From contig CM034546.1 of NCBI GenBank assembly GCA_020055645.1, positions 47,244,001-47,308,000 of the forward strand: a DNA stretch of 64,000 bases, read 5' to 3'. Positions 2,866-28,571 of this stretch are shown piece after piece. Within the stretch, counting starts at the first letter, position 1. Each line of letters starts with the position of its first letter. The notes beneath the pieces are model-generated. The model did no database searches. It was not told where the DNA came from and saw nothing but the letters and a program-made list of their open reading frames with translations. The position numbers and the translations under genes were made by a program. Origin of the DNA: Tomocerus qinae (Eukaryota > Arthropoda > Collembola > Entomobryomorpha > Tomoceridae).

Positions 2866-4224
2866 TGTGAAGTCTCAAAAAGACGTTCACGTACTCGTAA
2901 GGCTCGGTTGCATAATATGTAAACTAAGACTCATTCAGCATATCTTAGATTGGCTCGTATAGGTAGAAATGCTTCTAGATTTAAGGAATTATCGGCTAAC
3001 AATTACTTATGCATCTCCAGTAATTCGTATGCAACTTCCCTAATTTCCTATTCATTTTCCAGTCCATGGTCGGTTCTTGAACTTACCTACAATGTCAATG
3101 TGATTTGATAAAAAGGCAAACCGATCGGTCCAGCTCTCATTATTAATCTCAACTTTGTTCCAAACACATCCATTCATTTATTATATATTATTATTATTTT
3201 CAGTTTACTTTATTTCATTTAAGTTTTATTTTTGACTGCACTGTTGATTATTCCAGTCCAGTCACTTACTTAAAGTATCACTTTCAACTGAATTGTAATT
3301 CAATTCAGGCAAAGATTCACTTTAGTAGTTAATTTTATTTCAAAGTTATACTTTTACTAAAAAGTACGGTGCTACAATTTGCCAGCCAGACCTTCCCAAT
3401 TCGTACGAGTTTCTCCGAAGAAGGAAGACCAGACCAGCAATACGGATCCACGCACAATAAAAAACAGGTTCCATTAATAAAATAAATATTTCCCTTAATA
3501 GCTTTGCTTAACCCAAGCCAAGCTCATTATCTCTGCAATTAATTGCCGAGACATTCGCTTTACTTTGGTCAAGCCAGTTATCCCTTAAACGGGCATTTGC
3601 ACTGATCTCCGTGCGTATTATCCATTCGCCCCAATTGGTATTAATCTTAAAATTGGTATTATTATTATTGGTATTCTTGTATTTCTAAATTCTAAGTGTA
3701 TTCGTAAATTATTGGCTTAAGAAGTGAAATTATACACACTAAACACGGATTACTTACTAGTCGTAAGCTCCGCAGGCATTGGTATAAAATAATTGGTATA
3801 CATACAAAAACATAAAACTGTGGTGTGTTGATAATATTACTCTAATATTATATTATATAATCTATAATAAATCTACCTTTCGAGAAATCAAAGAGTAACA
3901 ATCATAAGAGCCAGTTCATCTAGGGTTTTGAGCCTAACCAATCCGAGTACATTTCTCCCTCGTTATTCTTGTCAGTATTTTCTAAACTACATTCTATTTT
4001 GTGTGCACTGTGTAAAATCATTTCATTCTCTCATAAACTAAATTACAGATTTAGGGATACTGTATTTGAGAGTAGAAGTGCCATCAAAGAATCAGTAGAA
4101 CTATTTTAGATAGCGATCTACAGTTTTTGTGGTTTATTATTCGCATACGATTAGTATTACTAATTCTAAATTTAAAAATACACTCTACCATATCCCTACA
4201 CTAAAGCTAAATAATAACCTCACA
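2866..4224 (+). repeat. LTR 1 (outer 5' LTR)
   Basis: 1359 bp, from TGTGAAGTCTC to CCTCACA. Nearly identical to LTR2 and LTR4 over most of its length, with few substitutions. It should contain the promoter for the first unit, but I cannot place a transcription start or poly(A) site with confidence. The length is long for this element class. Confidence 0.93.
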
Positions 4225-4231
4225 AAAAAGT

Positions 4232-4249
4232 TGGCGACCTTGCCAGGAT
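4232..4249 (+). other. Primer binding site, unit 1
   Basis: TGGCGACCTTGCCAGGAT lies seven bases after the LTR and begins with TGG, the complement of a tRNA CCA end. The first eight bases resemble the tRNA-Arg type site of some insect gypsy elements; the tRNA identity is not established. Confidence 0.75.
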
Positions 4250-4490
4250 ATGGTCTAAATTTTCCTTTTTGTGCTCACAAAATTTTACAAAATTCTATTC
4301 TATACTTTCATTAATAAATTTTCCTTCTTTTCCAAGGCTTAAAGCAAAGAATACCAATTACTTGCGTTTTGCGTTTCATTTCTATCAACAGCTAAATACT
4401 CGAATCATTTAAAGCATTTTCGTTTGAGTCTCAAAGTAGCATTTATTTTACAAGCCATATTTTGAGTTGCAATTAGTTTTCTTTGTTAAA

Positions 4491-6325
4491 ATGGTAAATC
4501 CTAGGAGAGGAAGACGAGGAAATGCTCCGTCAGAAGAGCAGGTTAACGAACCCGAGGCGCCTATCACACCTAGGGTAATCCATAGTCCAATTCCACGGGC
4601 AGTAGATAGACCACAAGAGGATAGTGATCCTCCTCCACCCTACAATTCACCTTTGGCTAGAGCTCGTAGAGACCAAGAGGACATTTTAATAAATGTCATG
4701 ACATTAGGACAAGCGTCAGGTCAGGCGGCGCCAGTCTCCACACATCCTCCTCCACAAAATTCTTCACAAAGAATCGAATTGGAGAGATTACTTTTTGACA
4801 GGGCAGAGCAAGGTTCATCTCAGACACAAAACGTTAACAGAGATGCATTAACTTCCAATAATATGCAGGAGATGTTAACGCAAATGACACAAAATTTTGT
4901 CCAAGCCATGAATCGTAATCAGCAGTTCATGCATAATGCCATGATCCATAATCAGCAGGCTATGCAAGCATCTATTCGTGAGATGCAAGATGCACAACTA
5001 AATGCTATCAGGAATATACAAATTCCACCAGCTCAGCCTATGCCACAAAGACAAAATCAAAATGATTTTTTAGCCGGACAAAGAGCACCTCCAGCAGGAA
5101 TTCAACCTTTGCATAACGAAGCTCCGGCACAGAATTTGTCTAACATTCATAACTTACCTAATTTGAATGCTAATCCAATCTTTGGTCAGGCAAGAGATAA
5201 TCGTCCACAGGTTGGTGAACCTAATTTACGTAGACATGAGTGTGGATTGCCTGATAATGCACATATAGTTCGAGGAGCTAATGCCCCCGTAGGAAATATG
5301 CATGCAGCTGGTCTACCGACTCATCATTTAAAATCCGCACACATAGCTATACCCACCTACAAGGGATTTACTGACAGTAAAACTCCCTTTGACTTTCTCG
5401 TAGAGCTTGAGAAATATCGAGCTATTATTGGCTATTCCGAAGCAGATCTTCTTCGCTATGTTGTCCCGTTAGCTTTGACAGAAGAAGCGTTTAATTGGTA
5501 TCGCTACGAAAATGATTTTCAGAATTTTGCTGATTTCAGACATCGCTTTCGTACAGAATTTCAATCTGTAGGTTATGTGGATGATCTGCAGAGGGAACTC
5601 GAAAATCGTACTCAAGGAGTACAGAAACTCTGTCATCTTTCATTCGAGTCATAGCTGATTACTATGAGCGCAGAGGTATGGATTATACTGATGATGATGT
5701 AGTTAGACGTGTGCTTAAGCAAATGCACCCTGAATACAGACTTGCATTGCAGGGTAAAGTCATCAATAATATGAGACAACTTAAACAGTGTGCCCAAGAA
5801 GCACAAGAACTCTTGAAAAGTTGTCGCTCATATAAGCCACCTCCAATAACTGGTAATTTGGAGCCATCATTAGCTTGGAAACCTATTAGTAAGCCTAGGG
5901 AAATAGGTAAAACTGAAACTAGTGCACTGAGTTGGACAAATGATAATAATGACACACCTAAACTTCATTTCGCTGCTGTTGATGCATTTACGTTCCATCA
6001 TACGGAACCTAGTGCTAAACGTGAAGTTAGATTTCATAATCCTCCAGTTCAGCAGCCAGGTATAAATAGGAACAATAATAATGTTTCTCAAGCTAAATAT
6101 CCATTACAGATCACACCACCCAGAAACAACTATACTCACTCTCCTCCAAGGAATTTTCAACCTAATTCTCCCAACAGGGCGAATCAAAATTCACCCTCAC
6201 GTTCTTTCAATCCACAAGTTCAGGAGACAGTTAGAGAAAGGAGAAATTCGAACGGTTCAGAAACTAATGCTAATGCAGGGAATCGTTCTTTAAACTCCCC
6301 ACGCCCGAGCCCACCTCGGCAGTGA
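4491..6325 (+). pseudogene. gag, unit 1, frameshifted
   Basis: Start ATG at 4491 (MVNPRRGRRG...), stop TGA at 6323-6325. Compared with units 2 and 3 one G is missing in a short G run near 5616, so the frame is split into 4491-5654 and a downstream part ending at 6325. The N-terminal half is rich in Pro, Gln and Asn. The middle holds a Ty3-type capsid region (FDFLVELEKYRAIIGY, then NWYRYENDF). The C-terminal part is a low-complexity Pro/Asn/Arg tail without a CCHC zinc knuckle. The stop codon overlaps the next ORF's ATG as TGATG. The break could be real or a homopolymer sequencing error. Confidence 0.88.
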
Positions 6326-6966
6326 TGGCTCGGGACACCGAAAAACTTTCAAACAACTTTCTTGCCACAGTCGTAGATAATGAACCTACTATTTATGTAC
6401 AAATTCTTGGTCAGCAATTCTTAGCTTACCTAGACTCATGTTCCTCCGTCAGTCTTGCCGGTGATAAATTAATATCATTATTAAAAGAGAGAAAAATAGT
6501 AACTAAAACTGTCGCCAAACAAATTAACTTTTTAGTAGGCGGATGTTCTTCAGCTGAAACAGCGAATGTCACTATCAATTACCCATCCGGTAAACGAAAG
6601 CAAACTCTCACTTTACTACCTGGCATGCGAAAAGAAATTTTACTGGGAAGAGATTTTCTCGGACCCACATTAATTGGAATACACGTAGGTTTAGGTGGAT
6701 GGACTGTCGGTCTTGAAAGACAAAAACTCATTCCTTTTGTAAAAGCCAATGAAACTGTACATAATAGTTCCGTTTCATGTAATACCTCCACCCTACTTAA
6801 GTCACCACAAGCTGACAAAAAACTAAATCCCAATTCAGACTCTACAATGAAAATGTCGCTAAAAACCCTCCTGTTGACTGCGATAAAATATATCAGTCTA
6901 CTAATTCATGCGAAAAATGTGATAAACATTCTGAGTCTACTTATCATACTCCTGCTTCCATTTTAG
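6325..6966 (+). CDS. Retrotransposon aspartic protease ORF, unit 1
   Basis: The ATG at 6325 overlaps the gag stop (TGATG), suggesting coupled termination and reinitiation. About 213 residues. The region around FLAYLDSCSSVSLAG is the active-site flap of a retropepsin, and ILLGRDFLG is its second conserved motif. The usual Asp-Ser/Thr-Gly is Asp-Ser-Cys here, in all three units. The last ~50 codons overlap, in another frame, the beginning of the RT ORF, whose frame is open from 6816. Whether the two are joined by frameshifting is unknown. Confidence 0.8.
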   Translation: MARDTEKLSNNFLATVVDNEPTIYVQILGQQFLAYLDSCSSVSLAGDKLISLLKERKIVTKTVAKQINFLVGGCSSAETANVTINYPSGKRKQTLTLLPGMRKEILLGRDFLGPTLIGIHVGLGGWTVGLERQKLIPFVKANETVHNSSVSCNTSTLLKSPQADKKLNPNSDSTMKMSLKTLLLTAIKYISLLIHAKNVINILSLLIILLLPF

Positions 6967-9810
6967 CAGAAGTAGCAAGCGAAATAACTTATGATGTTTT
7001 TCATATCGATGTTGTTAGTCAACAGAGAAAGGAATTACCTGAAAGCTTAAAGCCACCTTCTCACCTTAGTCCTACTCAACAAGAACAACTTTCAGCAGTT
7101 ATTGAAAAGTACCTGCCTATGTTTAGTAAAAAGCCGGGACTATGCACATTATTCGAACATGTCATTGAAACAGTAGACTGCAGGCCAATTAAATCACATC
7201 CACGTCCAATGACTCCGGGGAAAAGGAAAGCATTTGATGAAGTTATGGACGAGCTCATAAAATACGATATTATCGAACCTTCGAATAGTCCATGGTCTTC
7301 TAACGCATTCCTCACTCCAAAGCCAAATGGCCAGCATAGATTTGTTGCAAATCTCAAAGCTGTCAATTCAGTCACAATTCCTGATGCATATTGCTTTCCT
7401 AGGAGTGACGATATGGTAACATTTATCGGTCCATGCCTATATTTTTCTACCTTTGATCTAATTAAAGGATTCTATCAATTTTTGATTAAACGTACACATA
7501 GGTGGAAAACAGCTTTTAATAGTCCGAGAGGCCTATACCAATTCAAACGTATGGCAATGGGATTACGTAATTCCCCAGCCACATTTCAAAGAGCTATGGA
7601 TGTCATTCTAGGCGATCTTAAGTGGAAGATTTGCGTAGTTTATTTTGATGATATTTTGATATTTTCTCGAACTTTTGAAGAACACCTCCTACATATTGAC
7701 ATGGTATTAAGTAAAATTCAAGCTGCTGGGCTTAACATTAACCCAGAAAAAGTACAATTATGTACAACTTCCTTTAAATTTCTTGGGTTCATTATCGAAC
7801 ACGGGCAATGTCACCCCGATCCCGAGAAAGTTGTAAAAATAAAGAACTACCCAGTACCACGTAAAGCAAAGGACATACAGAGATTTTTAGGTTTAGTTGG
7901 ATTTTATCGAAGATTCATTCCAGATTATGCCAAATATTCTAAATGTCTCACTAGGTTAGTAAAGAAAGATGTTACTTTCGAGTGGAATTCAGAGACACAA
8001 GCTTCATTTGACTTCTTCACGAATGCACTTTCTAATTTGACTACTTTGCGTTTACCAGACTTAAACTTACCTTTTATCATCCAAACGGATGCGAGCAAAG
8101 AAGCTATAGGTGCAGTGCTACTACAAGAACACGAAGGCATTCGCTACCCATTATGGTTTGCTAGTAGAACTTTGAAAGATTGTGAGACTAGATACTCTAG
8201 TCCCGAAAAAGAGTGTCTTGGAGTAATATGGGCTATAAACAAATTCAAAGGATTCGTAGAATATACAAGGTTTATAGTAGAAACAGATCACCAGGCTCTC
8301 ATTTGGCTTCGTAATTTTAAGGATCCTACCGGCAGAATAGCTCACTGGTTCATGGAGCTGCAGGGCTATGATTTCGAAGTAAGATATCGAAAAGGCAGTA
8401 ACAATCAAGCTGCAGATGCCATGAGCAGAATCTCCGAAGTCCATATGACAGAAATTGCAAATAAAATCACTCGCAATAGTATGAAAGAGGCACAAGACAA
8501 TGATGACTATTTATCTATACTTAAGCAATTCATAAACGAGACTCTTATTTCAGCTGACACTCCTACTTTGACTAAACTCAAAGAACAGGCAAAACGAGCA
8601 TTCATCACTGAAGATGGAATTCTTCTACGGTACGTAGGTCCTCGTGGTAAGCCATGGGAAGATGAGAGACTATATTGGAGAATTTGGATAGCTCCTTCCC
8701 AAATAAATGAAATAATAGAACTTTTTCATTCAAATGTTCTCTCAGGTCATTTAGGTATACGGAAAACCTACGGAAAGCTAGAGGATAGATTTTATTTTGC
8801 TAACTTACGAAGAGAAGTCGCTAGCTACGTAAGAAATTGCATTGAGTGTCAACGCACAAAATATCCTAAAACTCCACCGGTGCCAGCTACTTCATTCAAG
8901 GCAGAAGGTCCTTGGGATTTAGTATCTATAGATTTGATGGGTCCATACACCAAGGGTACAAAATCACATAGATACATTTTAGTAGTCGTATGCTACTTTA
9001 CAAAATTCGTTGAGATTTTCGCTTTGAAAGATGCAAAGGCAGATATTATAGTTAAAAAGCTATGGAAAGTATTCTGCCGTTGGGGGAGTACCTAGGTACA
9101 TAATATCGGATAATGGTAGTCAATTTGGATCTAACATATATTTAGATTGGTGCAGTATGTTAAATATCAAGACTTTTCACATTTCTCCATATCATGCTCA
9201 AGCCAATTTAACTGAAAGGTATAACCAAACCATAAAAAGCATGATTGTGGCTAATATAGAGAAATGCAAGGAATGGGATAAAAATCTTCATGAGATTAGT
9301 TTTGCTCTACGCACTAGCATTAACGATAGTACAGGATTCACTCCCGCATACCTTAATACAGGTAGAGAATTTCGCAATCCCTTTGATAACATCCTTGATT
9401 TAAATTTATCTCATTGTAAAGAAACAAAGGAAAGAGGAAAGCGAATAAATGCAATTCAAAGTATAGCCAGAGATATTTTGACTAAGAATCAAGAAAATTA
9501 TTTGCGTTACTACAATAGAGGAACTAAGGCACGTACATTTAATGTGGGCGATCTTGTGTGGTATCGTGCACATTATTTAAGTGATGCAAGTAAAGGTATT
9601 ACCGCCAGCCTTATGGGAAAAAGAGAAGGCCCTTATGAGGTAACTAAAGTTGTATCAACCAACGTATACAATTTGATTTCTCGAAAGGATGGTCAGGTAA
9701 TTAATAAAGTACACATAAATGACATGTCTCCCTATCTAACAGCCAACGGTCATGCAGAGACATCCCAAAATTGTGACAACTCCAGTTCCATGGGCGCACC
9801 GCCCCTCTGA
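6816..9810 (+). pseudogene. pol (RT-RNaseH-integrase), unit 1, frameshifted
   Basis: The frame is open from 6816 to 9095, then shifts because a G run near 9088 has five instead of four G, and resumes to the stop at 9810. It contains an RT with the YFDD motif near 7640, RNase H with TDAS and ETDHQAL, and an integrase zinc region (GHLGIRKTY ... CIECQRTK). The break falls inside the integrase catalytic core, between its first and second acidic residues. Outside the break it is almost identical to units 2 and 3. Confidence 0.9.
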
Positions 9811-10723
9811 ACGTTACAGCCCATACTCGTCTCCATTTTTCACGCGTCCAAAAATACCACTAACCCAGCAAGAGATGAAAAGAGTCTATGAAAATCGACA
9901 CTTTGACATGCAGCAAAGTTCGCCACTCGCTCGTCTTGAACACGACTACAATTACCGTGAAATTGGAGAAAGACAACCCACAACTAATCATACACCTGTA
10001 AATACTATCAAACCAAGATCTGAACCATTGAGATACCGTGTACAGCATGTATCAGTTCAAACAGCAACTCCTGAGTATGTCAAAGAAGTTACCAAATTCG
10101 GACGTATTTCTGGACTACAGATCGAGAGACTGAAAGACAAAGCGAGAGATAGAGGCGTTAAACATCCGAGATTTGTGGTTGATCAAGGAGTCCTAGCTAG
10201 TGAAACAGATGTCCCACCCAACCCAGAAGAAGATGACATGCCATGGATTCCTAAAAGTCTTATCGTCTCCGCACACTTCCAGCCTCAACGAAGAATAGTT
10301 ACCCTCCACAACAATGTAGCAGAGCCCACTGAAAAGAAAATTAATTCTTATATTCCCTACGAACCTCCTAAGTCCACTCTAATGTCAAAAGAACATTTCT
10401 TACGAATTTCTTATGACATAAAACCCAAACTAATTCGCAAAATCAGACCCCAAAAATCGAGTTTAACCGAGTTGGAGCAGAGACAAATCAAACTCCGACA
10501 AGAAATCAGAAAAACTAAATTGGAATTGGCAAAGGTCATGACCAATGCAAAAGTAACGAAGAAAGTGAAAAATTCCGGGTTCACTCCTGTTACACGTTCC
10601 ACTAGTGTTACCACACCCAAAAAGTACAAAAGAATTCGAGTACTCCAGATGAAGCTTATTCACCTTCCAAACCCGAGATTACCTCTAATAGTCCCGAAGA
10701 TGCTGCAGAATCTCTCCTACTAG
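9752..10723 (+). CDS. Third ORF, unit 1, altered C-terminus
   Basis: ATG at 9752, overlapping the last 59 bases of pol in another frame; 323 residues. It matches the unit 2 copy until about residue 300. A single-G difference near 10640 then changes the frame and the tail ends NLSY instead of GDSE. No signal peptide, membrane segment or other envelope feature is visible. The unit 3 copy has the same short tail. Confidence 0.75.
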   Translation: MQRHPKIVTTPVPWAHRPSERYSPYSSPFFTRPKIPLTQQEMKRVYENRHFDMQQSSPLARLEHDYNYREIGERQPTTNHTPVNTIKPRSEPLRYRVQHVSVQTATPEYVKEVTKFGRISGLQIERLKDKARDRGVKHPRFVVDQGVLASETDVPPNPEEDDMPWIPKSLIVSAHFQPQRRIVTLHNNVAEPTEKKINSYIPYEPPKSTLMSKEHFLRISYDIKPKLIRKIRPQKSSLTELEQRQIKLRQEIRKTKLELAKVMTNAKVTKKVKNSGFTPVTRSTSVTTPKKYKRIRVLQMKLIHLPNPRLPLIVPKMLQNLSY

Positions 10724-10963
10724 CTGGCGAGATAACTGATGAAGATATTTCAGTCACGACTGAACAAATGCATCTGGGTGACTCTGAATAGTTCTCTTGT
10801 ATCATTTAAAATTTCATTTTCATTTATTTTTGAGTATTCACATCAGTGCGTACTATATCTAATTATCTTTACAAATTAATTTCAATTAATCAAATGAAAG
10901 GGTTAAATTGTTGTGTGTGTTTTGCCGTTATCTCAATAAATTAAGAGTAACGACAAGATTAAC

Positions 10964-10972
10964 GGGGAGGGA
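10964..10972 (+). other. Polypurine tract, unit 1
   Basis: GGGGAGGGA one base before LTR2; the expected plus-strand primer site. It is one G shorter than in units 2 and 3. Confidence 0.8.
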
Positions 10973-10973
10973 T

Positions 10974-12333
10974 TGTGAAGTCTCAAAAAGACGTTCACGT
11001 ACTCGTAAGGCTCGGTTGCATAATATGTAAACTAAGACTCATTCAGCATATCTTAGATTGGCTCGTATAGGTAGAAATGCTTCTAGATTTAAGGAATTAT
11101 CGGCTAACAATTACTTATGCATCTCCAGTAATTCGTATGCAACTTCCCTAATTTCCTATTCATTTTCCAGTCCATGGTCGGTTCTTGAACTTACCTACAA
11201 TGTCAATGTGATTTGATAAAAAGGCAAACCGATCGGTCCAGCTCTCATTATTAATCTCAACTTTGTTCCAAACACATCCATTCATTTATTATATATTATT
11301 ATTATTTTCAGTTTACTTTATTTCATTTAAGTTTTATTTTTGACTGCACTGTTGATTATTCCAGTCCAGTCACTTACTTAAAGTATCACTTTCAACTGAA
11401 TTGTAATTCAATTCAGGCAAAGATTCACTTTAGTAGTTAATTTTATTTCAAAGTTATACTTTTACTAAAAAGTACGGTGCTACAATTTGCCAGCCAGACC
11501 TTCCCAATTCGTACGAGTTTCTCCGAAGAAGGAAGACCAGACCAGCAATACGGATCCACGCACAATAAAAAACAGGTTCCATTAATAAAATAAATATTTC
11601 CCTTAATAGCTTTGCTTAACCCAAGCCAAGCTCATTATCTCTGCAATTAATTGCCGAGACATTCGCTTTACTTTGGTCAAGCCAGTTATCCCTTAAACGG
11701 GCATTTGCACTGATCTCCGTGCGTATTATCCATTCGCCCCAATTGGTATTAATCTTAAAATTGGTATTATTATTATTGGTATTCTTGTATTTCTAAATTC
11801 TAAGTGTATTTGTAAATTATTGGCTTAAGAAGTGAAATTATACACACTAAACACGGATTACTTACTAGTCGTAAGCTCCGCAGGCATTGGTATAAAATAA
11901 TTGGTATACATACAAAAACATAAAACTGTGGTGTGTTGATAATATTACTCTAATATTATATTATATAATCTATAATAAATCTACCTTTCGAGAAATCAAA
12001 GAGTAACAATCATAAGAGCCAGTTCATCTAGGGTTTTGAGCCTAACCAATCCGAGTACATTTCTCCCTCGTTATTCTTGTCAGTATTTTCTAAACTACAT
12101 TCTATTTTGTGTGCACTGTGTAAAATCATTTCATTCTCTCATAAACTAAATTACAGATTTAGGGATACTGTATTTGAGAGTAGAAGTGCCATCAAAGAAT
12201 CAGTAGAACTATTTTAGATAGCGATCTACAGTTTTTGTGGTTTATTATTCGCATACGATTAGTATTACTAATTCTAAATTTAAAAAATACACTCTACCAT
12301 ATCCCTACACTAAAGCTAAATAATAACCTCACA
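10974..12333 (+). repeat. LTR 2 (shared between units 1 and 2)
   Basis: 1360 bp, TGTGA...TCACA. It serves as the 3' LTR of unit 1 and the 5' LTR of unit 2. No target duplication flanks it, unlike the outer array boundaries. Confidence 0.93.
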
Positions 12334-12340
12334 AAAAAGT

Positions 12341-12358
12341 TGGCGACCTTGCCAGGAT
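12341..12358 (+). other. Primer binding site, unit 2
   Basis: TGGCGACCTTGCCAGGAT, identical to units 1 and 3 and at the same distance from the LTR. Confidence 0.75.
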
Positions 12359-12599
12359 ATGGTCTAAATTTTCCTTTTTGTGCTCACAAAATTTTACAAA
12401 ATTCTATTCTATACTTTCATTAATAAATTTTCCTTCTTTTCCAAGGCTTAAAGCAAAGAATACCAATTACTTGCGTTTTGCGTTTCATTTCTATCAACAG
12501 CTAAATACTCGAATCATTTAAAGCATTTTCGTTTGAGTCTCAAAGTAGCATTTATTTTACAAGCCATATTTTGAGTTGCAATTAGTTTTCTTTGTTAAA

Positions 12600-14435: not shown

Positions 14436-14989
14436 TGGCTCGGGACACCGAAAAACTTTCAAACAACTTTCTTGCCACAGTCGTAGATAATGAACCTACT
14501 ATTTATGTACAAATTCTTGGTCAGCAATTTTTAGCTTACCTAGACTCATGTTCCTCCGTCAGTCTTGCCGGTGATAAATTAATATCATTATTAAAAGAGA
14601 GAAAAATAGTAACTAAAACTGTCGCCAAACAAATTAACTTTTTAGTAGGCGGATGTTCTTCAGCTGAAACAGCAGCAGTCACTATCAATTACCCATCTGG
14701 TAAACGAAAGCAAACTCTCACTTTACTACCTGGCATGCGAAAAGAAATTTTATTGGGAAGAGATTTTCTTGGACCCACATTAATTGGAATACACGTAGGT
14801 TTAGGTGGATGGACTGTCGGCCTTGAAAGACAAAAACTCATTCCTTTTGTGAAAGCCAATGAAACTGTACATAATAGTTCCGTTTCATGTAATACCTCCT
14901 CCCTATTTAAGTCACCAAATGCTGACATAAAACCAAAACTCAATGCAGACTCTACAATGAAAATGTCGCTAAAAACCTTCTCCTGTTGA
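14435..14989 (+). CDS. Retrotransposon aspartic protease ORF, unit 2
   Basis: ATG at 14435 on the gag stop; 184 residues. Same retropepsin motifs as unit 1 (LDSCSSVS and LLGRDFLG), again with Cys in place of the active-site Gly. The last ~30 residues differ from units 1 and 3, and a local length difference near 14977 places it in the opposite frame relation to the RT ORF, with a 17-nt overlap (RT frame opens at 14973). Confidence 0.82.
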   Translation: MARDTEKLSNNFLATVVDNEPTIYVQILGQQFLAYLDSCSSVSLAGDKLISLLKERKIVTKTVAKQINFLVGGCSSAETAAVTINYPSGKRKQTLTLLPGMRKEILLGRDFLGPTLIGIHVGLGGWTVGLERQKLIPFVKANETVHNSSVSCNTSSLFKSPNADIKPKLNADSTMKMSLKTFSC

Positions 14990-18903: not shown

Positions 18904-19075
18904 TTCTCTTGTATCATTTAAAATTTCATTTTCATTTATTTTTGAGTATTCACATTAGTGCGTACTATATCTAATTATCTTTACAAATTAATTTCAATTA
19001 ATCAAATGAAAGGGTTAAATTGTTGTGTGTGTTTTGCCGTTATCTCAATAAATTAAGAGTAACGACAAGATTAAC

Positions 19076-19085
19076 GGGGAGGGGA
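19076..19085 (+). other. Polypurine tract, unit 2
   Basis: GGGGAGGGGA one base before LTR3. Confidence 0.8.
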
Positions 19086-19086
19086 T

Positions 19087-20447
19087 TGTGAAGTCTCAAA
19101 AAGACGTTCACGTACTCGTAAGGCTCGGTTGCATAATATGTAAACTAAGACTCATTCAGCATATCTTAGATTGGCTCGTATAGGTAGAAATGCTTCTAGA
19201 TTTAAGGAATTATCGGCTAACAATTACTTATGCATCTCCAGTAATTCGTATGCAACTTCCCTAATTTCCTATTCATTTTCCAGTCCATGGTCGGTTCTTG
19301 AACTTACCTACAATGTCAATGTGATTTGATAAAAAGGCAAACCGATCGGTCCAGCTCTCATTATTAATCTCAACTTTGTTCCAAACACATCCATTCATTT
19401 ATTATATATTATTATTATTTTCAGTTTACTTTATTTCATTTAAGTTTTATTTTTGACTGCACTGTTGATTATTCCAGTCCAGTCACTTACTTAAAGTATC
19501 ACTTTCAACTGAATTGTAATTCAATTCAGGCAAAGATTCACTTTAGTAGTTAATTTTATTTGGAAGTTATACTTTATCTAAAAAGTACGGTGCTACAATT
19601 TGCCAGCCAGACCTTCCCAATTCGTACGAGTTTCTCCGAAGAAGGAAGACCAGACCAGCAATACGGATCCACGCACAATAAAAAACAGGTTCCATTAATA
19701 AAATAAATATTTCCCTTAATAGCTTTTGCTTAACCCAAGCCAAGCTCATTATCTCTGCAATTAATTGCCGAGACATTCGCTTTACTTTGGTCAAGCCAGT
19801 TATCCCTTAAACGGGCATTTGCACTGATCTCCGTGCGTATTCTCCATTCGCCCCAATTGGTATTAATCTTTAAATTGGTATTATTATTATTGGTATTCTT
19901 GTATTTCTAAATTATAAGTGTATTCATATATTATTGGCTTAAGAAGTGAAATTATACACACTAAACACGGATTACTTACTAGTTGTAAGCTCCGCAGGCA
20001 TTGGTATTAACTAATTGGTATTACATACAAAAACATAAAACTGTGGTGTGTTGATAATATTACTCTAATATTATATTATATAATCTATAATAAATCTACC
20101 TTTCGAGAAATCAAAGAGTAACAATCATAAGAGCCAGTTCATCTAGGGTTTTGAGCCTAACCAATCCGAGTACATTTCTCCCTCGTTATTCTTGTCAGTA
20201 TTTTCTAAACTACATTCTATTTTGTGTGCACTGTGTAAAATCATTTCATTCTCTCATAAACTAAATTACAGATTTAGGGATACTGTATTTGAGAGTAGAA
20301 GTGCCATCAAAGAATCAGTAGAACTATTTTAGATAGCGATCTACAGTTTTTGTGGTTTATTATTCGCATACGATTAGTATTACTAATTCTAAATTTAAAA
20401 ATACACTCTACCATATCCCTACACTAAAGCTAAATAATAACCTCACA
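19087..20447 (+). repeat. LTR 3 (shared between units 2 and 3), most divergent
   Basis: 1361 bp, TGTGA...TCACA. It carries private changes not found in LTR1, 2 or 4, for example near 19561-19580, around 19841, 19917-19930 and 20005-20025. An internal LTR more divergent than both outer LTRs indicates that the array was not made by simple duplication of one unit. Confidence 0.93.
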
Positions 20448-20454
20448 AAAAAGT

Positions 20455-20472
20455 TGGCGACCTTGCCAGGAT
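20455..20472 (+). other. Primer binding site, unit 3
   Basis: TGGCGACCTTGCCAGGAT, identical to the other units. Confidence 0.75.
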
Positions 20473-20714
20473 ATGGTCTAAATTTTCCTTTTTGTGCTCA
20501 CAAAATTTTACAAAATTCTATTCTATACTTTCATTAATAAATTTTCCTTCTTTTTCCAAGGCTTAAAGCAAAGAATACCAATTACTTGCGTTTTGCGTTT
20601 CATTTCTATCAACAGCTAAATACTCGAATCATTTAAAGCATTTTCGTTTGAGTCTCAAAGTAGCATTTATTTTACAAGCCATATTTTGAGTTGCAATTAG
20701 TTTTCTTTGTTAAA

Positions 20715-22550
20715 ATGGTAAATCCTAGGAGAGGAAGACGAGGAAATGCTCCGTCAGAAGAGCAGGTTAACGAACCCGAGGCGCCTATCACACCTAGGGT
20801 AATCCATAGTCCAATTCCACGGGCAGTAGATAGACCACAAGAGGATAGTGATCCTCCTCCACCCTACAATTCACCTTTGTCTAGAGGTCGTAGAGACCAA
20901 GAGGACATTTTAATAAATGTCATGACATTAGGACAAGCGTCAGGTCCTGCGGCGCCAGTCTCCACACATCCTCCACAACAAAATTCTTCACAAAGAATCG
21001 AATTGGAGAGATTACTTTTTGACAGGGCAGAGCAAGGTTCATCTCAGACACAAAACGTTAACAGAGATGCATTAACTTCCAATAATATGCAGGAGATGTT
21101 AACGCAAATGACACAAAATTTTGTCCAAGCCATGAATCGTAATCAGCAGTTCATGCATAATGCCATGATCCATAATCAGCAGGCTATGCAAGCATCTATT
21201 CGTGAGATGCAAGATGCACAACTAAATGCTATCAGGAATATACAAATTCCACCAGCTCAGCCTATGCCACAAAGACAAAATCAAAATGATTTTTTAGCCG
21301 GACAAAGAGCACCTCCAGCAGGAATTCAACCTTTGCATAACGAAGCTCCGGCACAGAATTTGTCTAACATTCATAACTTACCTAATTTGAATGCTAATCC
21401 AATCTTTGGTCAGGCAAGAGATAATCGTCCACAGGTTGGTGAACCTAATTTACGTAGACATGAGTGTGGATTGCCTGATAATGCACATATAGTTCGAGGA
21501 GTTAATGCCCACGTAGGAAATATGCATGCAGCTGGTCTACCGACTCATCATTTAAAATCCGCACACATAGCTATACCCACCTACAAGGGATTTACTGACA
21601 GTAAAACTCCCTTTGACTTTCTCGTAGAGCTTGAGAAATATCGAGCTATTATTGGCTATTCCGAAGCAGATCTTCTTCGCTATGTTGTCCCGTTAGCTTT
21701 GACAGAAGAAGCGTTTAATTGGTATCGCTACGAAAATGATTTTCAGAATTTTGCTGATTTCAGACATCGCTTTCGTACAGAATTTCAATCTGTAGGTTAT
21801 GTGGATGATCTGCAGAGGGAACTCGAAAATCGTACTCAAGGGAGTACAGAAACTCTGTCATCTTTCATTCGAGTCATAGCTGATTACTATGAGCGCAGAG
21901 GTATGGATTATACTGATGATGATGTAGTTAGACGTGTGCTTAAGCAAATGCACCCTGAATACAGACTTGCATTGCAGGGTAAAGTCATCAATAATATGAG
22001 ACAACTTAAACAGTGTGCCCAAGAAGCACAAGAACTCTTGAAAAGTTGTCGCTCATATAAGCCACCTCCAATAACTGGCAATTTGGAGCCATCATTAGCT
22101 TGGAAACCTATCAGCAAGCCTAGGGAAATAGGAAAAACTGAAACTAGTGCACTGAGTTGGACAAACGATAACAATGACACACCTAAACTTCATTTCGCTG
22201 CTGTAGATGCATTTACGTTCCATCATACAGAACCTAGTGCTAAACGTGAAGTCAGATTTCAAAATCCTCCAGTTCAGCAACCAGGTATTAATAGGAACAA
22301 TAATAATGTTTCTCAAGCTAAATATCCAGTACAGATCACTCCACCCAGAAATAACTATCCTAACACTCCTCCAAGGAATTTCCAAACTAATTCTCCCAAA
22401 AGGGCGAATCAAAATTCACCCTCACGTTCTTTCAATCCACAAGTTCAGGAGACAGATAGAGAAAGGAGAAATTCGAACGGTTCAGAAACTAATGCTAATG
22501 CAGGGAATCGTTCTTTAAACTCCCCACGCCCGAGCCCACCTCGGCAGTGA
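20715..22550 (+). CDS. gag, unit 3, intact
   Basis: ATG at 20715; 611 residues. Almost identical to unit 2, including the variant C-terminal tail, with small N-terminal differences (GPAAPVSTHPPQQ). Same capsid-like core and same lack of a zinc knuckle. The stop overlaps the next ATG as TGATG. Confidence 0.9.
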   Translation: MVNPRRGRRGNAPSEEQVNEPEAPITPRVIHSPIPRAVDRPQEDSDPPPPYNSPLSRGRRDQEDILINVMTLGQASGPAAPVSTHPPQQNSSQRIELERLLFDRAEQGSSQTQNVNRDALTSNNMQEMLTQMTQNFVQAMNRNQQFMHNAMIHNQQAMQASIREMQDAQLNAIRNIQIPPAQPMPQRQNQNDFLAGQRAPPAGIQPLHNEAPAQNLSNIHNLPNLNANPIFGQARDNRPQVGEPNLRRHECGLPDNAHIVRGVNAHVGNMHAAGLPTHHLKSAHIAIPTYKGFTDSKTPFDFLVELEKYRAIIGYSEADLLRYVVPLALTEEAFNWYRYENDFQNFADFRHRFRTEFQSVGYVDDLQRELENRTQGSTETLSSFIRVIADYYERRGMDYTDDDVVRRVLKQMHPEYRLALQGKVINNMRQLKQCAQEAQELLKSCRSYKPPPITGNLEPSLAWKPISKPREIGKTETSALSWTNDNNDTPKLHFAAVDAFTFHHTEPSAKREVRFQNPPVQQPGINRNNNNVSQAKYPVQITPPRNNYPNTPPRNFQTNSPKRANQNSPSRSFNPQVQETDRERRNSNGSETNANAGNRSLNSPRPSPPRQ

Positions 22551-23190
22551 TGGCTCGGGACACCGAAAACTTTCAAACAACTTTCTTGCCACAGTCGTAG
22601 ATAATGAACCTACTATTTATGTACAAATTCTTGGTCAGCAATTTTTAGCTTACCTAGACTCATGTTCCTCCGTCAGTCTTGCCGGTGATAAATTAATATC
22701 ATTATTAAAAGAGAGAAAAATAGTAACTAAAACTCTCGCCAAACAAATTAACTTTTTAGTAGGCGGATGTTCTTCAGCTGAAACAGCGAATGTCACTATC
22801 AATTACCCATCCGGTAAACGAAAGCAAACTCTCACTTTACTACCTGGCATGCGAAAAGAAATTTTACTGGGAAGAGATTTTCTCGGACCCACATTAATTG
22901 GAATACACGTAGGTTTAGGTGGATGGACTGTCGGTCTTGAAAGACAAAAACTCATTCCTTTTGTAAAAGCCAATGAAACTGTACATAATAGTTCCGTTTC
23001 ATGTAATACCTCCACCCTACTTAAGTCACCACAAGCTGACAAAAAACTAAATCCCAATTCAGACTCTACAATGAAAATGTCGCTAAAAACCCTCCTGTTG
23101 ACTGCGATAAAATATATCAGTCTACTAATTCATGCGAAAAATGTGATAAACATTCTGAGTCTACTTATCATACTCCTGCTTCCATCTTAG
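22550..23190 (+). pseudogene. Protease ORF, unit 3, frameshifted near its start
   Basis: The TGATG start is kept, but an A run near 22568 is one A shorter than in units 1 and 2, so the frame fails within the first ten codons. Downstream the protease frame is open again to 23190 and encodes the same motifs. From about 22785 onward it matches unit 1, not unit 2. Confidence 0.8.
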
Positions 23191-26033
23191 CAGAAGTAGC
23201 AAGCGAAATAACTTATGATGTTTTTCATATCGATGTTGTTAGTCAACAGAGAAAGGAATTACCTGAAAGCTTAAAGCCACCTTCTCACCTTAGTCCTACT
23301 CAACAAGAACAACTTTCAGCAGTTATTGAAAAGTACCTGCCTATGTTTAGTAAAAAGCCGGGACTATGCACATTATTCGAACATGTCATTGAAACAGTAG
23401 ACTGCAGGCCAATTAAATCACATCCACGTCCAATGACTCCGGGGAAAAGGAAAGCATTTGATGAAGTTATGGACGAGCTCATAAAATACGATATTATCGA
23501 ACCTTCGAATAGTCCATGGTCTTCTAACGCATTCCTCACTCCAAAGCCAAATGGCCAGCATAGATTTGTTGCAAATCTCAAAGCTGTCAATTCAGTCACA
23601 ATTCCTGATGCATATTGCTTTCCTAGGAGTGACGATATGGTAACATTTATCGGTCCATGCCTATATTTTTCTACCTTTGATCTAATTAAAGGATTCTATC
23701 AATTTTTGATTAAACGTACACATAGGTGGAAAACAGCTTTTAATAGTCCGAGAGGCCTATACCAATTCAAACGTATGGCAATGGGATTACGTAATTCCCC
23801 AGCCACATTTCAAAGAGCTATGGATGTCATTCTAGGCGATCTTAAGTGGAAGATTTGCGTAGTTTATTTTGATGATATTTTGATATTTTCTCGAACTTTT
23901 GAAGAACACCTCCTACATATTGACATGGTATTAAGTAAAATTCAAGCTGCTGGGCTTAACATTAACCCAGAAAAAGTACAATTATGTACAACTTCCTTTA
24001 AATTTCTTGGGTTCATTATCGAACACGGGCAATGTCACCCCGATCCCGAGAAAGTTGTAAAAATAAAGAACTACCCAGTACCACGTAAAGCAAAGGACAT
24101 ACAGAGATTTTTAGGTTTAGTTGGATTTTATCGAAGATTCATTCCAGATTATGCCAAATATTCTAAATGTCTCACTAGGTTAGTAAAGAAAGATGTTACT
24201 TTCGAGTGGAATTCAGAGACACAAGCTTCATTTGACTTCTTCACGAATGCACTTTCTAATTTGACTACTTTGCGTTTACCAGACTTAAACTTACCTTTTA
24301 TCATCCAAACGGATGCGAGCAAAGAAGCTATAGGTGCAGTGCTACTACAAGAACACGAAGGCATTCGCTACCCATTATGGTTTGCTAGTAGAACTTTGAA
24401 AGATTGTGAGACTAGATACTCTAGTCCCGAAAAAGAGTGTCTTGGAGTAATATGGGCTATAAACAAATTCAAAGGATTCGTAGAATATACAAGGTTTATA
24501 GTAGAAACAGATCACCAGGCTCTCATTTGGCTTCGTAATTTTAAGGATCCTACCGGCAGAATAGCTCACTGGTTCATGGAGCTGCAGGGCTATGATTTCG
24601 AAGTAAGATATCGAAAAGGCAGTAACAATCAAGCTGCAGATGCCATGAGCAGAATCTCCGAAGTCCATATGACAGAAATTGCAAATAAAATCACTCGCAA
24701 TAGTATGAAAGAGGCACAAGACAATGATGACTATTTATCTATACTTAAGCAATTCATAAACGAGACTCTTATTTCAGCTGACACTCCTACTTTGACTAAA
24801 CTCAAAGAACAGGCAAAACGAGCATTCATCACTGAAGATGGAATTCTTCTACGGTACGTAGGTCCTCGTGGTAAGCCATGGGAAGATGAGAGACTATATT
24901 GGAGAATTTGGATAGCTCCTTCCCAAATAAATGAAATAATAGAACTTTTTCATTCAAATGTTCTCTCAGGTCATTTAGGTATACGGAAAACCTACGGAAA
25001 GCTAGAGGATAGATTTTATTTTGCTAACTTACGAAGAGAAGTCGCTAGCTACGTAAGAAATTGCATTGAGTGTCAACGCACAAAATATCCTAAAACTCCA
25101 CCGGTGCCAGCTACTTCATTCAAGGCAGAAGGTCCTTGGGATTTAGTATCTATAGATTTGATGGGTCCATACACCAAGGGTACAAAATCACATAGATACA
25201 TTTTAGTAGTCGTATGCTACTTTACAAAATTCGTTGAGATTTTCGCTTTGAAAGATGCAAAGGCAGATATTATAGTTAAAAAGCTATGGAAAGTATTCTG
25301 CCGTTGGGGAGTACCTAGGTACATAATATCGGATAATGGTAGTCAATTTGGATCTAACATATATTTAGATTGGTGCAGTATGTTAAATATCAAGACTTTT
25401 CACATTTCTCCATATCATGCTCAAGCCAATTTAACTGAAAGGTATAACCAAACCATAAAAAGCATGATTGTGGCTAATATAGAGAAATGCAAGGAATGGG
25501 ATAAAAATCTTCATGAGATTAGTTTTGCTCTACGCACTAGCATTAACGATAGTACAGGATTCACTCCCGCATACCTTAATACAGGTAGAGAATTTCGCAA
25601 TCCCTTTGATAACATCCTTGATTTAAATTTATCTCATTGTAAAGAAACAAAGGAAAGAGGAAAGCGAATAAATGCAATTCAAAGTATAGCCAGAGATATT
25701 TTGACTAAGAATCAAGAAAATTATTTGCGTTACTACAATAGAGGAACTAAGGCACGTACATTTAATGTGGGCGATCTTGTGTGGTATCGTGCACATTATT
25801 TAAGTGATGCAAGTAAAGGTATTACCGCCAGCCTTATGGGAAAAAGAGAAGGCCCTTATGAGGTAACTAAAGTTGTATCAACCAACGTATACAATTTGAT
25901 TTCTCGAAAGGATGGTCAGGTAATTAATAAAGTACACATAAATGACATGTCTCCCTATCTAACAGCCAACGGTCATGCAGAGACATCCCAAAATTGTGAC
26001 AACTCCAGTTCCATGGGCGCACCGCCCCTCTGA
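23040..26033 (+). CDS. pol (RT-RNaseH-integrase), unit 3, intact
   Basis: Open for 997 codons from just after an in-frame stop at 23037. The part from ATG 23343 is 896 residues and essentially the same as unit 2, with RT YFDD, the RNase H acidic residues, the integrase zinc region, DDE residues and GPY module. The upstream overlap with the protease ORF has the unit 1 frame relation. Confidence 0.92.
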   Translation, partial: QKTKSQFRLYNENVAKNPPVDCDKIYQSTNSCEKCDKHSESTYHTPASILAEVASEITYDVFHIDVVSQQRKELPESLKPPSHLSPTQQEQLSAVIEKYLPMFSKKPGLCTLFEHVIETVDCRPIKSHPRPMTPGKRKAFDEVMDELIKYDIIEPSNSPWSSNAFLTPKPNGQHRFVANLKAVNSVTIPDAYCFPRSDDMVTFIGPCLYFSTFDLIKGFYQFLIKRTHRWKTAFNSPRGLYQFKRMAMGLRNSPATFQRAMDVILGDLKWKICVVYFDDILIFSRTFEEHLLHIDMVLSKIQAAGLNINPEKVQLCTTSFKFLGFIIEHGQCHPDPEKVVKIKNYPVPRKAKDIQRFLGLVGFYRRFIPDYAKYSKCLTRLVKKDVTFEWNSETQASFDFFTNALSNLTTLRLPDLNLPFIIQTDASKEAIGAVLLQEHEGIRYPLWFASRTLKDCETRYSSPEKECLGVIWAINKFKGFVEYTRFIVETDHQALIWLRNFKDPTGRIAHWFMELQGYDFEVRYRKGSNNQAADAMSRISEVHMTEIANKITRNSMKEAQDNDDYLSILKQFINETLISADTPTLTKLKEQAKRAFITEDGILLRYVGPRGKPWEDERLYWRIWIAPSQINEIIELFHSNVLSGHLGIRKTYGKLEDRFYFANLRREVASYVRNCIECQRTKYPKTPPVPATSFKAEGPWDLVSIDLMGPYTKGTKSHRYILVVVCYFTKFVEIFALKDAKADIIVKKLWKVFCRWGVPRYIISDNGSQFGSNIYLDWCSMLNIKTFHISPYHAQANLTERYNQTIKSMIVANIEKCKEWDKNLHEISFALRTSINDSTGFTPAYLNTGREFRNPFDNILDLNLSHCKETKERGKRINAIQSIARDILTKNQENYLRYYNRGTKARTFNVGDLVWYRAHYLSDASKGITASLMGKREGPYEVTKVVSTNVYNLISRKDGQVINKVHINDMSPYLTANGHAETSQNCDNSSSMGAPPL

Positions 26034-26946
26034 ACGTTACAGCCCATACTCGTCTCCATTTTTCACGCGTCCAAAAATACCACTAACCCAGCAAGAGATG
26101 AAAAGAGTCTATGAAAATCGACACTTTGACATGCAGCAAAGTTCGCCACTCGCTCGTCTTGAACATGACTACAATTACCGTGAAATTGGAGAAAGACAAC
26201 CCACAACTAATCATACACCTGTAAATACAATCAAACCAAGATCTGAACCATTGAGATACCGTGTACAGCATGTATCAGTTCAAACAGCAACTCCTGAGTA
26301 TGTCAAAGAAGTTACCAAATTCGGACGTATTTCTGGACTACAGATCGAGAGACTGAAAGACAAAGCGAGAGATAGAGGCGTTAAACATCCGAGATTTGTG
26401 GTTGATCAAGGAGTCCTAGCTAGTGAAACAGATGTCCCACCCAACCCAGAAGAAGATGACATGCCATGGATTCCTAAAAGTCTTATCGTCTCCGCACACT
26501 TCCAGCCTCAACGAAGAATAGTTACCCTCCACAACAATGTAGCAGAGCCCACTGAAAAGAAAATTAATTCTTATATTCCCTACGAACCTCCTAAGTCCAC
26601 TCTAATGTCAAAAGAACATTTCTTACGAATTTCTTATGACATAAAACCCAAACTAATTCGCAAAATCAGACCCCAAAAATCGAGTTTAACCGAGTTGGAG
26701 CAGAGACAAATCAAACTCCGACAAGAAATCAGAAAAACTAAATTGGAATTGGCAAAGGTCATGACCAATGCAAAAGTAACGAAGAAAGTGAAAAATTCCG
26801 GGTTCACTCCTGTTACACGTTCCACTAGTGTTACCACACCCAAAAAGTACAAAAGAATTCGAGTACTCCAGATGAAGCTTATTCACCTTCCAAACCCGAG
26901 ATTACCTCTAATAGTCCCGAAGATGCTGCAGAATCTCTCCTACTAG
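25975..26946 (+). CDS. Third ORF, unit 3, altered C-terminus
   Basis: 323 residues with the same frame-changing G-run difference near 26863 as unit 1; otherwise as described for unit 2. Confidence 0.75.
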   Translation: MQRHPKIVTTPVPWAHRPSERYSPYSSPFFTRPKIPLTQQEMKRVYENRHFDMQQSSPLARLEHDYNYREIGERQPTTNHTPVNTIKPRSEPLRYRVQHVSVQTATPEYVKEVTKFGRISGLQIERLKDKARDRGVKHPRFVVDQGVLASETDVPPNPEEDDMPWIPKSLIVSAHFQPQRRIVTLHNNVAEPTEKKINSYIPYEPPKSTLMSKEHFLRISYDIKPKLIRKIRPQKSSLTELEQRQIKLRQEIRKTKLELAKVMTNAKVTKKVKNSGFTPVTRSTSVTTPKKYKRIRVLQMKLIHLPNPRLPLIVPKMLQNLSY

Positions 26947-27186
26947 CTGGCGAGATAACTGATGAAGATATTTCAGTCACGACTGAACAAATGCATCTGG
27001 GTGACTCTGAATAGTTCTCTTGTATCATTTAAAATTTCATTTTCATTTATTTTTGAGTATTCACATTAGTGCGTACTATATCTAATTATCTTTACAAATT
27101 AATTTCAATTAATCAAATGAAAGGGTTAAATTGTTGTGTGTGTTTTGCCGTTATCTCAATAAATTAAGAGTAACGACAAGATTAAC

Positions 27187-27196
27187 GGGGAGGGGA
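27187..27196 (+). other. Polypurine tract, unit 3
   Basis: GGGGAGGGGA one base before LTR4. Confidence 0.8.
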
Positions 27197-27197
27197 T

Positions 27198-28555
27198 TGT
27201 GAAGTCTCAAAAAGACGTTCACGTACTCGAAAGGCTCGGTTGCATAAGATGTAAATCAGACTCCATCAGCATATCTTAGATTGGCTCGTATAGGTAGAAA
27301 TGCTTCTAGATTTAAGGAATTATCGGCTAACAATTACTTATGCATCTCCAGTAATTCGTATGCAACTTCCCTAATTTCCTATTCATTTTCCAGTCCATGG
27401 TCGGTTCTTGAACTTACCTACAATGTCAATGTGATTTGATAAAAAGGCAAACCGATCGGTCCAGCTCTCATTATTAATCTCAACTTTGTTCCAAACACAT
27501 CCATTCATTTATTATATATTATTATTATTTTCAGTTTACTTTATTTCATTTAAGTTTTATTTTTGACTGCACTGTTGATTATTCCAGTCCAGTCACTTAC
27601 TTAAAGTATCACTTTCAACTGAATTGTAATTCAATTCAGGCAAAGATTCACTTTAGTAGTTAATTTTATTTCAAAGTTATACTTTTACTAAAAAGTACGG
27701 TGCTACAATTTGCCAGCCAGACCTTCCCAATTCGTACGAGTTTCTCCGAAGAAGGAAGACCAGACCAGCAATACGGATCCACGCACAATAAAAAACAGGT
27801 TCCATTAATAAAATAAATATTTCCCTTAATAGCTTTGCTTAACCCAAGCCAAGCTCATTATCTCTGCAATTAATTGCCGAGACATTCGCTTTACTTTGGT
27901 CAAGCCAGTTATCCCTTAAACGGGCATTTGCACTGATCTCCGTGCGTATTATCCATTCGCCCCAATTGGTATTAATCTTAAAATTGGTATTATTATTATT
28001 GGTATTCTTGTATTTCTAAATTCTAAGTGTATTCGTAAATTATTGGCTTAAGAAGTGAAATTATACACACTAAACACGGATTACTTACTAGTCGTAAGCT
28101 CCGCAGGCATTGGTATAAAATAATTGGTATACATACAAAAACATAAAACTGTGGTGTGTTGATAATATTACTCTAATATTATATTATATAATCTATAATA
28201 AATCTACCTTTCGAGAAATCAAAGAGTAACAATCATAAGAGCCAGTTCATCTAGGGTTTTGAGCCTAACCAATCCGAGTACATTTCTCCCTCGTTATTCT
28301 TGTCAGTATTTTCTAAACTACATTCTATTTTGTGTGCACTGTGTAAAATCATTTCATTCTCTCATAAACTAAATTACAGATTTAGGGATACTGTATTTGA
28401 GAGTAGAAGTGCCATCAAAGAATCAGTAGAACTATTTTAGATAGCGATCTACAGTTTTTGTGGTTTATTATTCGCATACGATTAGTATTACTAATTCTAA
28501 ATTTAAAAATACACTCTACCATATCCCTACACTAAAGCTAAATAATAACCTCACA
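27198..28555 (+). repeat. LTR 4 (outer 3' LTR)
   Basis: 1358 bp, TGTGA...TCACA. The first ~80 bases hold several changes not in the other LTRs (for example ACTCGAAAGG and AAGATGTAAATC); the rest is close to LTR1. It is followed by ATTT at 28556-28559, the right target duplication. Confidence 0.93.
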
Positions 28556-28571
28556 ATTTATACATATATAC

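Follow-up and report, generated by a model that had tools for sequence, protein, structure and literature searches.

The 64,000-nucleotide window (the whole stretch of Tomocerus qinae DNA analysed) contains a tandem array of an LTR retrotransposon at positions 2866-28555, in which four LTRs (1358-1361 bp) alternate with three internal regions (6749-6753 bp). Rather than being plain duplicates of one another, the units carry patches from other members of the same family. With slightly better than even confidence, we regard a single integration, followed by misaligned LTR-LTR recombination and the overwriting of blocks by gene conversion, as the best reading of this locus.

Architecture and coding content of the array

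The boundaries of the array are base-exact:

2862..2865, no strand: left 4-bp target duplication, ATTT
2866..4224, + strand: LTR1, base haplotype
4225..10973, + strand: internal region 1
10974..12333, + strand: LTR2, base haplotype (1 substitution and 1 single-base gap relative to LTR1)
12334..19086, + strand: internal region 2
19087..20447, + strand: LTR3
20448..27197, + strand: internal region 3, nearest to the base haplotype (7 private substitutions)
27198..28555, + strand: LTR4
28556..28559, no strand: right 4-bp target duplication, ATTT

The LTRs end in TGTGAAG...CCTCACA, and ATTT flanks the array at its outer edges only. At the internal LTR junctions there are zero host bases and zero additional duplications, the LTR abutting internal sequence both ways. 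With n internal regions and n+1 LTRs (three and four) and one outer duplication, this is a shared-LTR tandem array. The earlier note had described three internal regions, four LTRs and ATTT at the outer edges only, which holds to the base; differing target duplications at internal LTR boundaries, which it had named as a refuting finding, are not present, the LTR/internal junctions being direct.

Two 4-mers drawn from the rest of the window match with a probability of 0.0065, the random expectation for the agreement of ATTT. Eight family copies are readable at both ends (the array, L005, L006, and L008-L012), and a perfect 4-bp duplication flanks seven of them, the exception being L008, whose 3' LTR end is unrecognisable; ATTT is thus a credible target duplication. 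Five of the eight are solo LTRs (L005, L006, L010, L011, and L012), each with its own 4-bp duplication, so LTR-LTR exchange does occur in this genome. In the 334-Mb assembly, a query of the LTR's initial 335 bp finds matches of at least 98% only in the four LTRs of the array; among other copies, the closest has 95.7% identity in the internal region and 89.7% in the LTR. A full-length match to the initial 371 bp of the 3' flank occurs at the array site alone, and therefore the assembly contains no alternative haplotype with a different number of units.

Unit 2 carries the following frames:

12549..14435, + strand: gag frame, Retrotrans_gag PF03732 (E 3.4e-05; 24.4 bits against a cut-off of 24.1)
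14973..17921, + strand: pol frame, with Pfam matches to RVT_1, RT_RNaseH, Integrase_H2C2, and rve
17851..18903, + strand: third frame, 350 aa, with no Pfam match, no cysteine, and no hydrophobic segment

Judged from these frames and its termini, the element is a Ty3/gypsy (Metaviridae) LTR retrotransposon: it has gag and a pol ordered RT, RNase H, integrase, together with TGTG...CACA ends and a short target duplication, and among PDB entries the Ty3 Gag-Pol polyprotein matches best (E 1.6e-99). A simple pattern scan of the unit 2 frames gave one match to the RT YxDD pattern; simple patterns for a protease motif and a gag zinc knuckle, applied to the unit 2 gag and middle frames only, gave no match. 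A purine-rich tract lies ahead of the next LTR in all three units, and an identical 36 bases directly follow LTR1, LTR2, and LTR3.

The frames differ in integrity between units. Gag is 628 aa in units 2 and 3 and is broken into 404 and 246 aa in unit 1, and pol is 759, 982, and 997 aa in units 1, 2, and 3, respectively. All three units have a protease-pol frame break that is absent from L009, a related full-length copy consisting of a single unit (pol 1178 aa). Units 1 and 3 also have in common a shorter third frame. An env-like identity for the third frame, as in errantivirus-type gypsy elements, is unsupported: the unit 2 frame lacks cysteine, a hydrophobic 19-residue window above 1.6, and a Pfam match. 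Among ten flanking frames compared with Pfam, an F-box frame alone was above the curated cut-off.

Differences between units and their donors

Differences between units fall in blocks, two of them in internal regions (approximately 380 and 510 bp) and two in LTRs (460 and at most 90 bp):

5854..6231, + strand: patch T1, unit 1, inside gag, 22 substitutions private to unit 1
14674..15181, + strand: patch T2, unit 2, around the pol frame start, 33 private substitutions and one gap
19562..20021, + strand: LTR3 patch, 12 private substitutions and 2 single-base gaps
27198..27287, + strand: LTR4 patch, diagnostic sites 27230-27265, 90 bp identical to the truncated LTR C1:27246154(-)

Outside the blocks, whose limits were drawn by eye on the variant map, a choice that lowers the counts given here, the internal regions differ pairwise at 9/5864, 13/5863, and 10/5865 sites, and the LTRs at 0/864 sites in each of six pairs (blocks cut out beforehand). 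Whole LTRs, blocks included, differ by at most 18 substitutions (highest for LTR3-LTR4).

Clustering was assessed with 5000 shuffles, counting those that reached the observed maximum within 50, 200, and 400 bases. None did so for unit 1 (0, 0, 0) or unit 2 (0, 0, 0); the counts were 1, 23, and 120 for unit 3, 302, 9, and 122 for LTR3, and 0, 5, and 65 for LTR4, while private sites number 0 in LTR1 and 1 in LTR2. Of the scattered private internal substitutions outside the blocks, 8/17 show the L009 state and are therefore old variants. The clustered differences and the L009 states at scattered sites together reject plain mutation after duplication.

The donor of one block could be traced. The first 90 bp of LTR4 match a 465-bp truncated LTR fragment approximately 20 Mb distant, with no internal region in the 30 kb inspected there; LTR1 differs from the fragment at 7 sites there, and the chance of such an identity is approximately 1.5e-6. 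Because the fragment is ~14% different beyond these 90 bp, the match shows that this block of LTR4 arose by ectopic gene conversion; we infer the direction to be from the fragment to LTR4. For the LTR3 patch, no single copy fits, and its states are partly those of other copies.

No donor for T1 or T2 was found in this assembly. L009 was rejected for both: of the 22 T1 sites, it shares the state of unit 1 at 13 and that of the other units at 6, and matches neither at the remaining 3; of the 35 T2 sites, two of which are gap columns, its state is that of unit 2 at 13, that of the other units at 20, and a different one at 2. The T1 changes are mostly synonymous (13 synonymous and 8 not, of 21 counted, with pS 0.16 and pN 0.027; 14 and 8 of 22 in a second count), which suggests that this block evolved in a functional lineage. 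Those of T2 are not mostly synonymous, like sequence originating from a decayed copy.

Origin of the array

In the reading we prefer, a single Ty3/gypsy integration would have produced the ATTT duplication, after which the LTRs would have misaligned and homologous recombination, between sister chromatids or homologues, would have added internal-region-plus-LTR units in place to a total of three. This gain would be the reciprocal of the exchange that yields solo LTRs as its deletion product. Blocks would then, or during the same repair events, have been replaced through gene conversion by sequence of other family members. We infer both the growth step by unequal exchange and this order of events. 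The frame break common to the units and absent from L009 favours one founder; in unit 2, however, it sits inside T2 and may have arrived with that block rather than from the founder, which slightly lowers our confidence. Had a single insertion exchanged unequally with itself, the units would differ by new mutations only, so this process alone is insufficient; the scattered substitutions in the L009 state require either several small conversions or units from different cDNAs. The earlier note had proposed LTR-LTR unequal exchange or cDNA recombination: one integration with LTR-mediated growth fits, but the blocks and the L009 states take the units beyond new mutations. Ectopic gene conversion, seen in LTR4, was absent from its proposals.

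The old family variants, the functional-lineage character of T1, and the want of a match for T1 and T2 among assembled copies would also be expected if freshly made cDNAs of sibling elements had joined a resident copy via their LTRs, in the manner of yeast Ty elements, each unit being a separate reverse transcript. We consider this possible, if rather unlikely, since one frame break is common to units 1 and 3 and, by position, also to unit 2, and since the LTRs are identical outside the blocks, though between the array and L009 LTRs diverge more than internal regions. T2 also looks as if from a decayed copy, and the LTR4 block matches a truncated fragment that lacks an internal region in the 30 kb inspected there. 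It is unlikely, in our judgement, that this is an animal germ line array grown by integrase-independent cDNA recombination, with units from unassembled siblings and later gene conversion.

One outer duplication and heterogeneous units are likewise predicted by a multimer formed before integration (by template switching, as a tandem transcript, or as a cDNA concatemer) and inserted in one event. For Triticeae, complex shared-LTR elements are reported to arise by template switching; for rice, a tandem transcript is left possible (PMC11899658). However, the inserted product would have been very large, at 25.7 kb, the related full-length copy L009 consists of one unit, and no feature of the array demands a multimer, so that we hold this origin to be improbable. 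Equally doubtful is a partial assembly artefact, in which expansion, collapse, or haplotype switching would have generated the unit number or block pattern. Single-base gaps (6/7 internal, 4/4 LTR), several within short one-base runs that some assemblies misread, are compatible with it, but every unit has private markers, the longest marker-free internal stretch (~2 kb) is short relative to long reads, the contig spans 140 Mb, the full-length 3' flank occurs once, and a real locus far away matches the LTR4 block. The unit number of three is known from one assembly. That three elements inserted independently or in nested fashion, a reading for which no supporting point was found, is extremely improbable: as the earlier note reasoned, each insertion would leave its own duplication, and the direct internal junctions, with neither duplication nor host sequence, contradict such an origin.

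This young array has private markers in each unit and one target site, and solo LTRs of the same family and an identified conversion donor can be set beside it, which makes it a good natural case for telling apart the routes by which tandem retrotransposons are made: unequal exchange, recombination of cDNA, and gene conversion. Its unit number is expected to be unstable.

Comparable arrays in other genomes

Shared-LTR arrays are already known in yeast, plants, and mammals; the present array is a further case and leaves the known repertoire of mechanisms unchanged. The earlier suggestion that three-unit tandems are rarely documented in animals needs tempering in view of a human two-unit HERV-K locus, kangaroo centromere arrays, and the shared-LTR tandems of plants. 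In yeast, Ty5 tandem elements reportedly form via the LTR by cDNA recombination (going by the title of Ke and Voytas, 1997), whereas for the array described here a cDNA origin is one candidate reading.

Passages on rice and other plants describe shared-LTR tandems of high identity with alternating LTR/internal units and, as here, a single duplication (4-5 bp) at the outer edges; of 28 rice tandems, 82% are gypsy (PMC11899658). The rice locus TLI2 is built of two internal regions with three LTRs, compared with three and four here; the hosts are plants, and the passages contain no block-conversion analysis like that given for the present array (PMC11899658). In the portion of the literature on the human HERV-K (HML-2) tandem provirus at 7p22.1, an LTR is shared between units, as here, and the locus is polymorphic for one or two units; unlike the present array, it is a retrovirus with two units and three LTRs (PMC11807958). 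Tandem LTR units of kangaroo centromeres are ascribed to exchange between two LTRs (as cited in PMC11899658), but those arrays are centromeric, and the titles concerned name satellite and megasatellite DNA. The relevant portions of PMC6523648 and PMC7943196 contain nothing on comparable shared LTRs.

For human LTRs, passages on non-allelic gene conversion trace clustered variants to distant donor LTRs, with tracts of 3-86 bp (minimum) and 14-450 bp (maximum) (PMC4921805). Those passages include no shared-LTR array; the LTR4 block resembles the tracts that they describe.

Structure and coding content of the array

The array comprises four long terminal repeats (LTRs; 1358–1361 bp) in alternation with three internal regions of 6749–6753 bp each (units 1, 2, and 3):

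2866–4224, LTR1
4225–10973, unit 1
10974–12333, LTR2
12334–19086, unit 2
19087–20447, LTR3
20448–27197, unit 3
27198–28555, LTR4

The motif ATTT lies directly 5' of LTR1 and directly 3' of LTR4. The earlier note had described three internal regions, four LTRs, and ATTT at the outer edges; this proved exact, and its coordinates were confirmed. Its rejection of nested insertions was also borne out: the internal LTR/internal-region junctions inspected contain zero host bases, which contradicts nesting. Two 4-mers from the remainder of the window would agree by chance with a probability of 0.0065. A perfect 4-bp duplication is present in seven of the eight family copies readable at both ends (truncated copies left out): the array (ATTT), L009 (AGGT), L005 (ACCT), L012 (GAGT), and L006, L010, and L011 (ATAT in each). 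The exception is L008, the 3' end of which is not clear. The length of the array's duplication is consistent with the family.

The unit 2 pol frame encodes the Pfam domains RVT_1, RT_RNaseH, Integrase_H2C2, and rve, the unit 2 gag frame scores barely over the Pfam cut-off for Retrotrans_gag, and the closest PDB relative is Ty3 Gag-Pol; the array element can be assigned to Ty3/gypsy, with long LTRs. Simple patterns for the gag zinc knuckle and the protease site gave no match in unit 2. Among the best 120 of 4359 protein matches listed for the RT region, the top identity is 63% (source “jgi”), and the organism-labelled matches begin with ticks (43–44% identity), followed by ants, a bee, a butterfly, fish, a frog, and others. 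Each unit carries a third frame (327–350 aa) overlapping the pol end:

9740–10723, third frame of unit 1
17851–18903, third frame of unit 2
25963–26946, third frame of unit 3

This frame looks protein-coding, given the excess of third-position changes between unit 3 and L009 (22 versus 7 and 6, over 910 bases). The unit 2 copy has no Pfam match, cysteine, or hydrophobic segment and is therefore not env-like.

Family copies and a common founder

In the assembly searched (334 Mb, 115 contigs; the window is C1:47244001–47308000), a query of the LTR's first 335 bp gave 25 matches, of which only the array's four LTRs reach at least 98% identity; the next match is at 93%. Reading the loci around these matches revealed five solo LTRs, each flanked by its own duplication, the remaining loci being one complete single element (L009; G000:C1:10451310–10461309) and truncated or rearranged pieces. 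The two LTRs of L009 are identical over 1355 bp, which is evidence that this sister lineage inserted recently in the Tomocerus qinae genome; its identity is 95.7% to unit 3 (internal region) and 89.7% to LTR1 (LTRs). A pol protein query, with 47 of 1292 candidates scored, listed 55 matches, among which tandem spacing, judged by eye, is confined to the array's three units. For the 3' flank, a query of its first 371 bp has a single full-length match in this assembly, at the array locus. Positions 28705–28834 of this flank are a short dispersed repeat, where 27 of the 29 other flank-query matches fall (up to 94% identity).

The protease-pol frame is broken in all three units, versus a single 1178-aa frame in L009; the corresponding frame is 1170–1213 aa in 16 other matches listed for the pol query, one with an internal stop. 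Taking the sequence as it stands, with breaks unrepaired and no claim to unit activity, the pol frames are 982 aa (unit 2), 997 aa (unit 3), and 759 aa (unit 1, which has a further break). A shorter third frame is common to units 1 and 3, unlike unit 2 and L009. The lesion and the base haplotype (the sequence common to most units) are shared by the units, which argues for descent from one defective founder. The argument is slightly weakened because the unit 2 break falls within T2, a block of substitutions around the start of the pol frame, with which it could have arrived.

Blocks of variation and their sources

On a variant map of all units, the variable sites cluster in blocks, with limits set by eye:

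5854–6231, T1, in the gag of unit 1: 22 substitutions versus units 2 and 3
14674–15181, T2, in unit 2: 33 substitutions versus units 1 and 3
19562–20021, LTR3 block: 12 substitutions versus the other three LTRs
27230–27265, LTR4 block: 6 substitutions and one gap versus the other three LTRs

The observed clustering in units 1 and 2 was reached by 0/5000 shuffles; with windows of 50, 200, and 400, that of LTR4 was reached in 0, 5, and 65 of 5000 shuffles, and that of LTR3 in 302, 9, and 122. With blocks excluded, the pairwise comparisons of internal regions show 9/5864, 13/5863, and 10/5865 differing sites, and those of LTRs 0/864 for every pair; whole alignments, blocks included, hold 36–65 substitutions (internal regions) and 1–18 (LTRs). 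In the internal regions, 17 private substitutions lie outside the blocks; of these, eight have the L009 state, in eight L009 agrees with the majority, and one fits neither. As new mutation should rarely match L009 (P ~4e-11 with 1.45% assumed for each match, 6e-7 with 5%), many unit differences predate the array.

For the LTR4 block, a source that matches is present in the assembly at C1:27246052–27246154 (minus strand), which is 98% identical to the first 103 bp of LTR4 and 94% identical to LTR1–3. Base by base, LTR4 equals the 465-bp fragment at this locus over 90 bp and then diverges from the rest of it by ~14%; 90 identical bases at such divergence have a chance of ~1.5e-6, and LTR1 differs from the fragment at seven sites inside the same 90 bp. 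Because LTR4 deviates from the other three LTRs, we infer transfer from the fragment to LTR4. A transcribed donor at this locus is unlikely, since the surrounding 30 kb hold no further match to LTR4 or internal region 3; a lost full-length sister of the fragment is a possible donor.

No donor of T1 was found in the assembly, the query matching the three units, L009 (95%), and two places at 71–73%; the same holds for T2, whose query matches the three units, L009 (92%), and four further places at 72%. The LTR3 block has no single donor among 24 matches (best beyond the array, 93%), and at two sites its state occurs in all other copies with a letter there (eight of 10 aligned). In the gag frame, T1 differences are mainly synonymous (13–14 versus 8 non-synonymous, of 21–22 counted), and T1 therefore derives from a lineage subject to selection. 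T2 shows no such synonymous majority (5 versus 15 and 6 versus 14 in two overlapping frames; by another count, 8 versus 25 in either frame), so its source may be a decayed copy.

Growth of the array and its surroundings

Ty5 is said to undergo cDNA recombination, and tandems have reportedly been described in kangaroo (LTR arrays) and in Drosophila (by McGurk and Barbash, in 2018). Published accounts describe shared-LTR tandems with a single outer duplication in rice and other plants, those of rice being mostly gypsy (PMC11899658), a human HERV-K shared-LTR locus that has either one or two units (PMC11807958), Triticeae shared-LTR elements attributed to template switching (PMC1950507), and Ty elements in tandem with a common LTR (PMC7055915). 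No description of an invertebrate three-unit gypsy array was found in the literature searched, which lies mostly outside subscription papers, and no first is claimed.

The most likely history is a single integration, after which misaligned LTR–LTR exchange would have enlarged the array and ectopic conversion would have patched its units; the family's solo LTRs are the reciprocal product of such exchange. Of the two mechanisms offered by the earlier note, LTR–LTR unequal exchange is thereby favored, with ectopic conversion added to it, and recombination of element cDNA into the resident copy stays a real rival, because the assembly contains no donor for T1 or T2 and many of the private variants are of old origin. 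Formation of a multimer before integration and an error of assembly are both less likely than growth by exchange with conversion.

Elsewhere in the window, at 49498–51313, an F-box gene precedes a frame judged leucine-rich by eye; the F-box frame has no homologue at E 0.001. A duplicated segment (33317–36435 and 41131–42990; three pieces, 82–85% identity) carries minus-strand frames that are hydrophobic by eye and multi-pass-receptor-like, none of the four frames tried reaching the Pfam cut-off. A minisatellite with a 24-base unit (13.7 copies) occupies 63490–63816.
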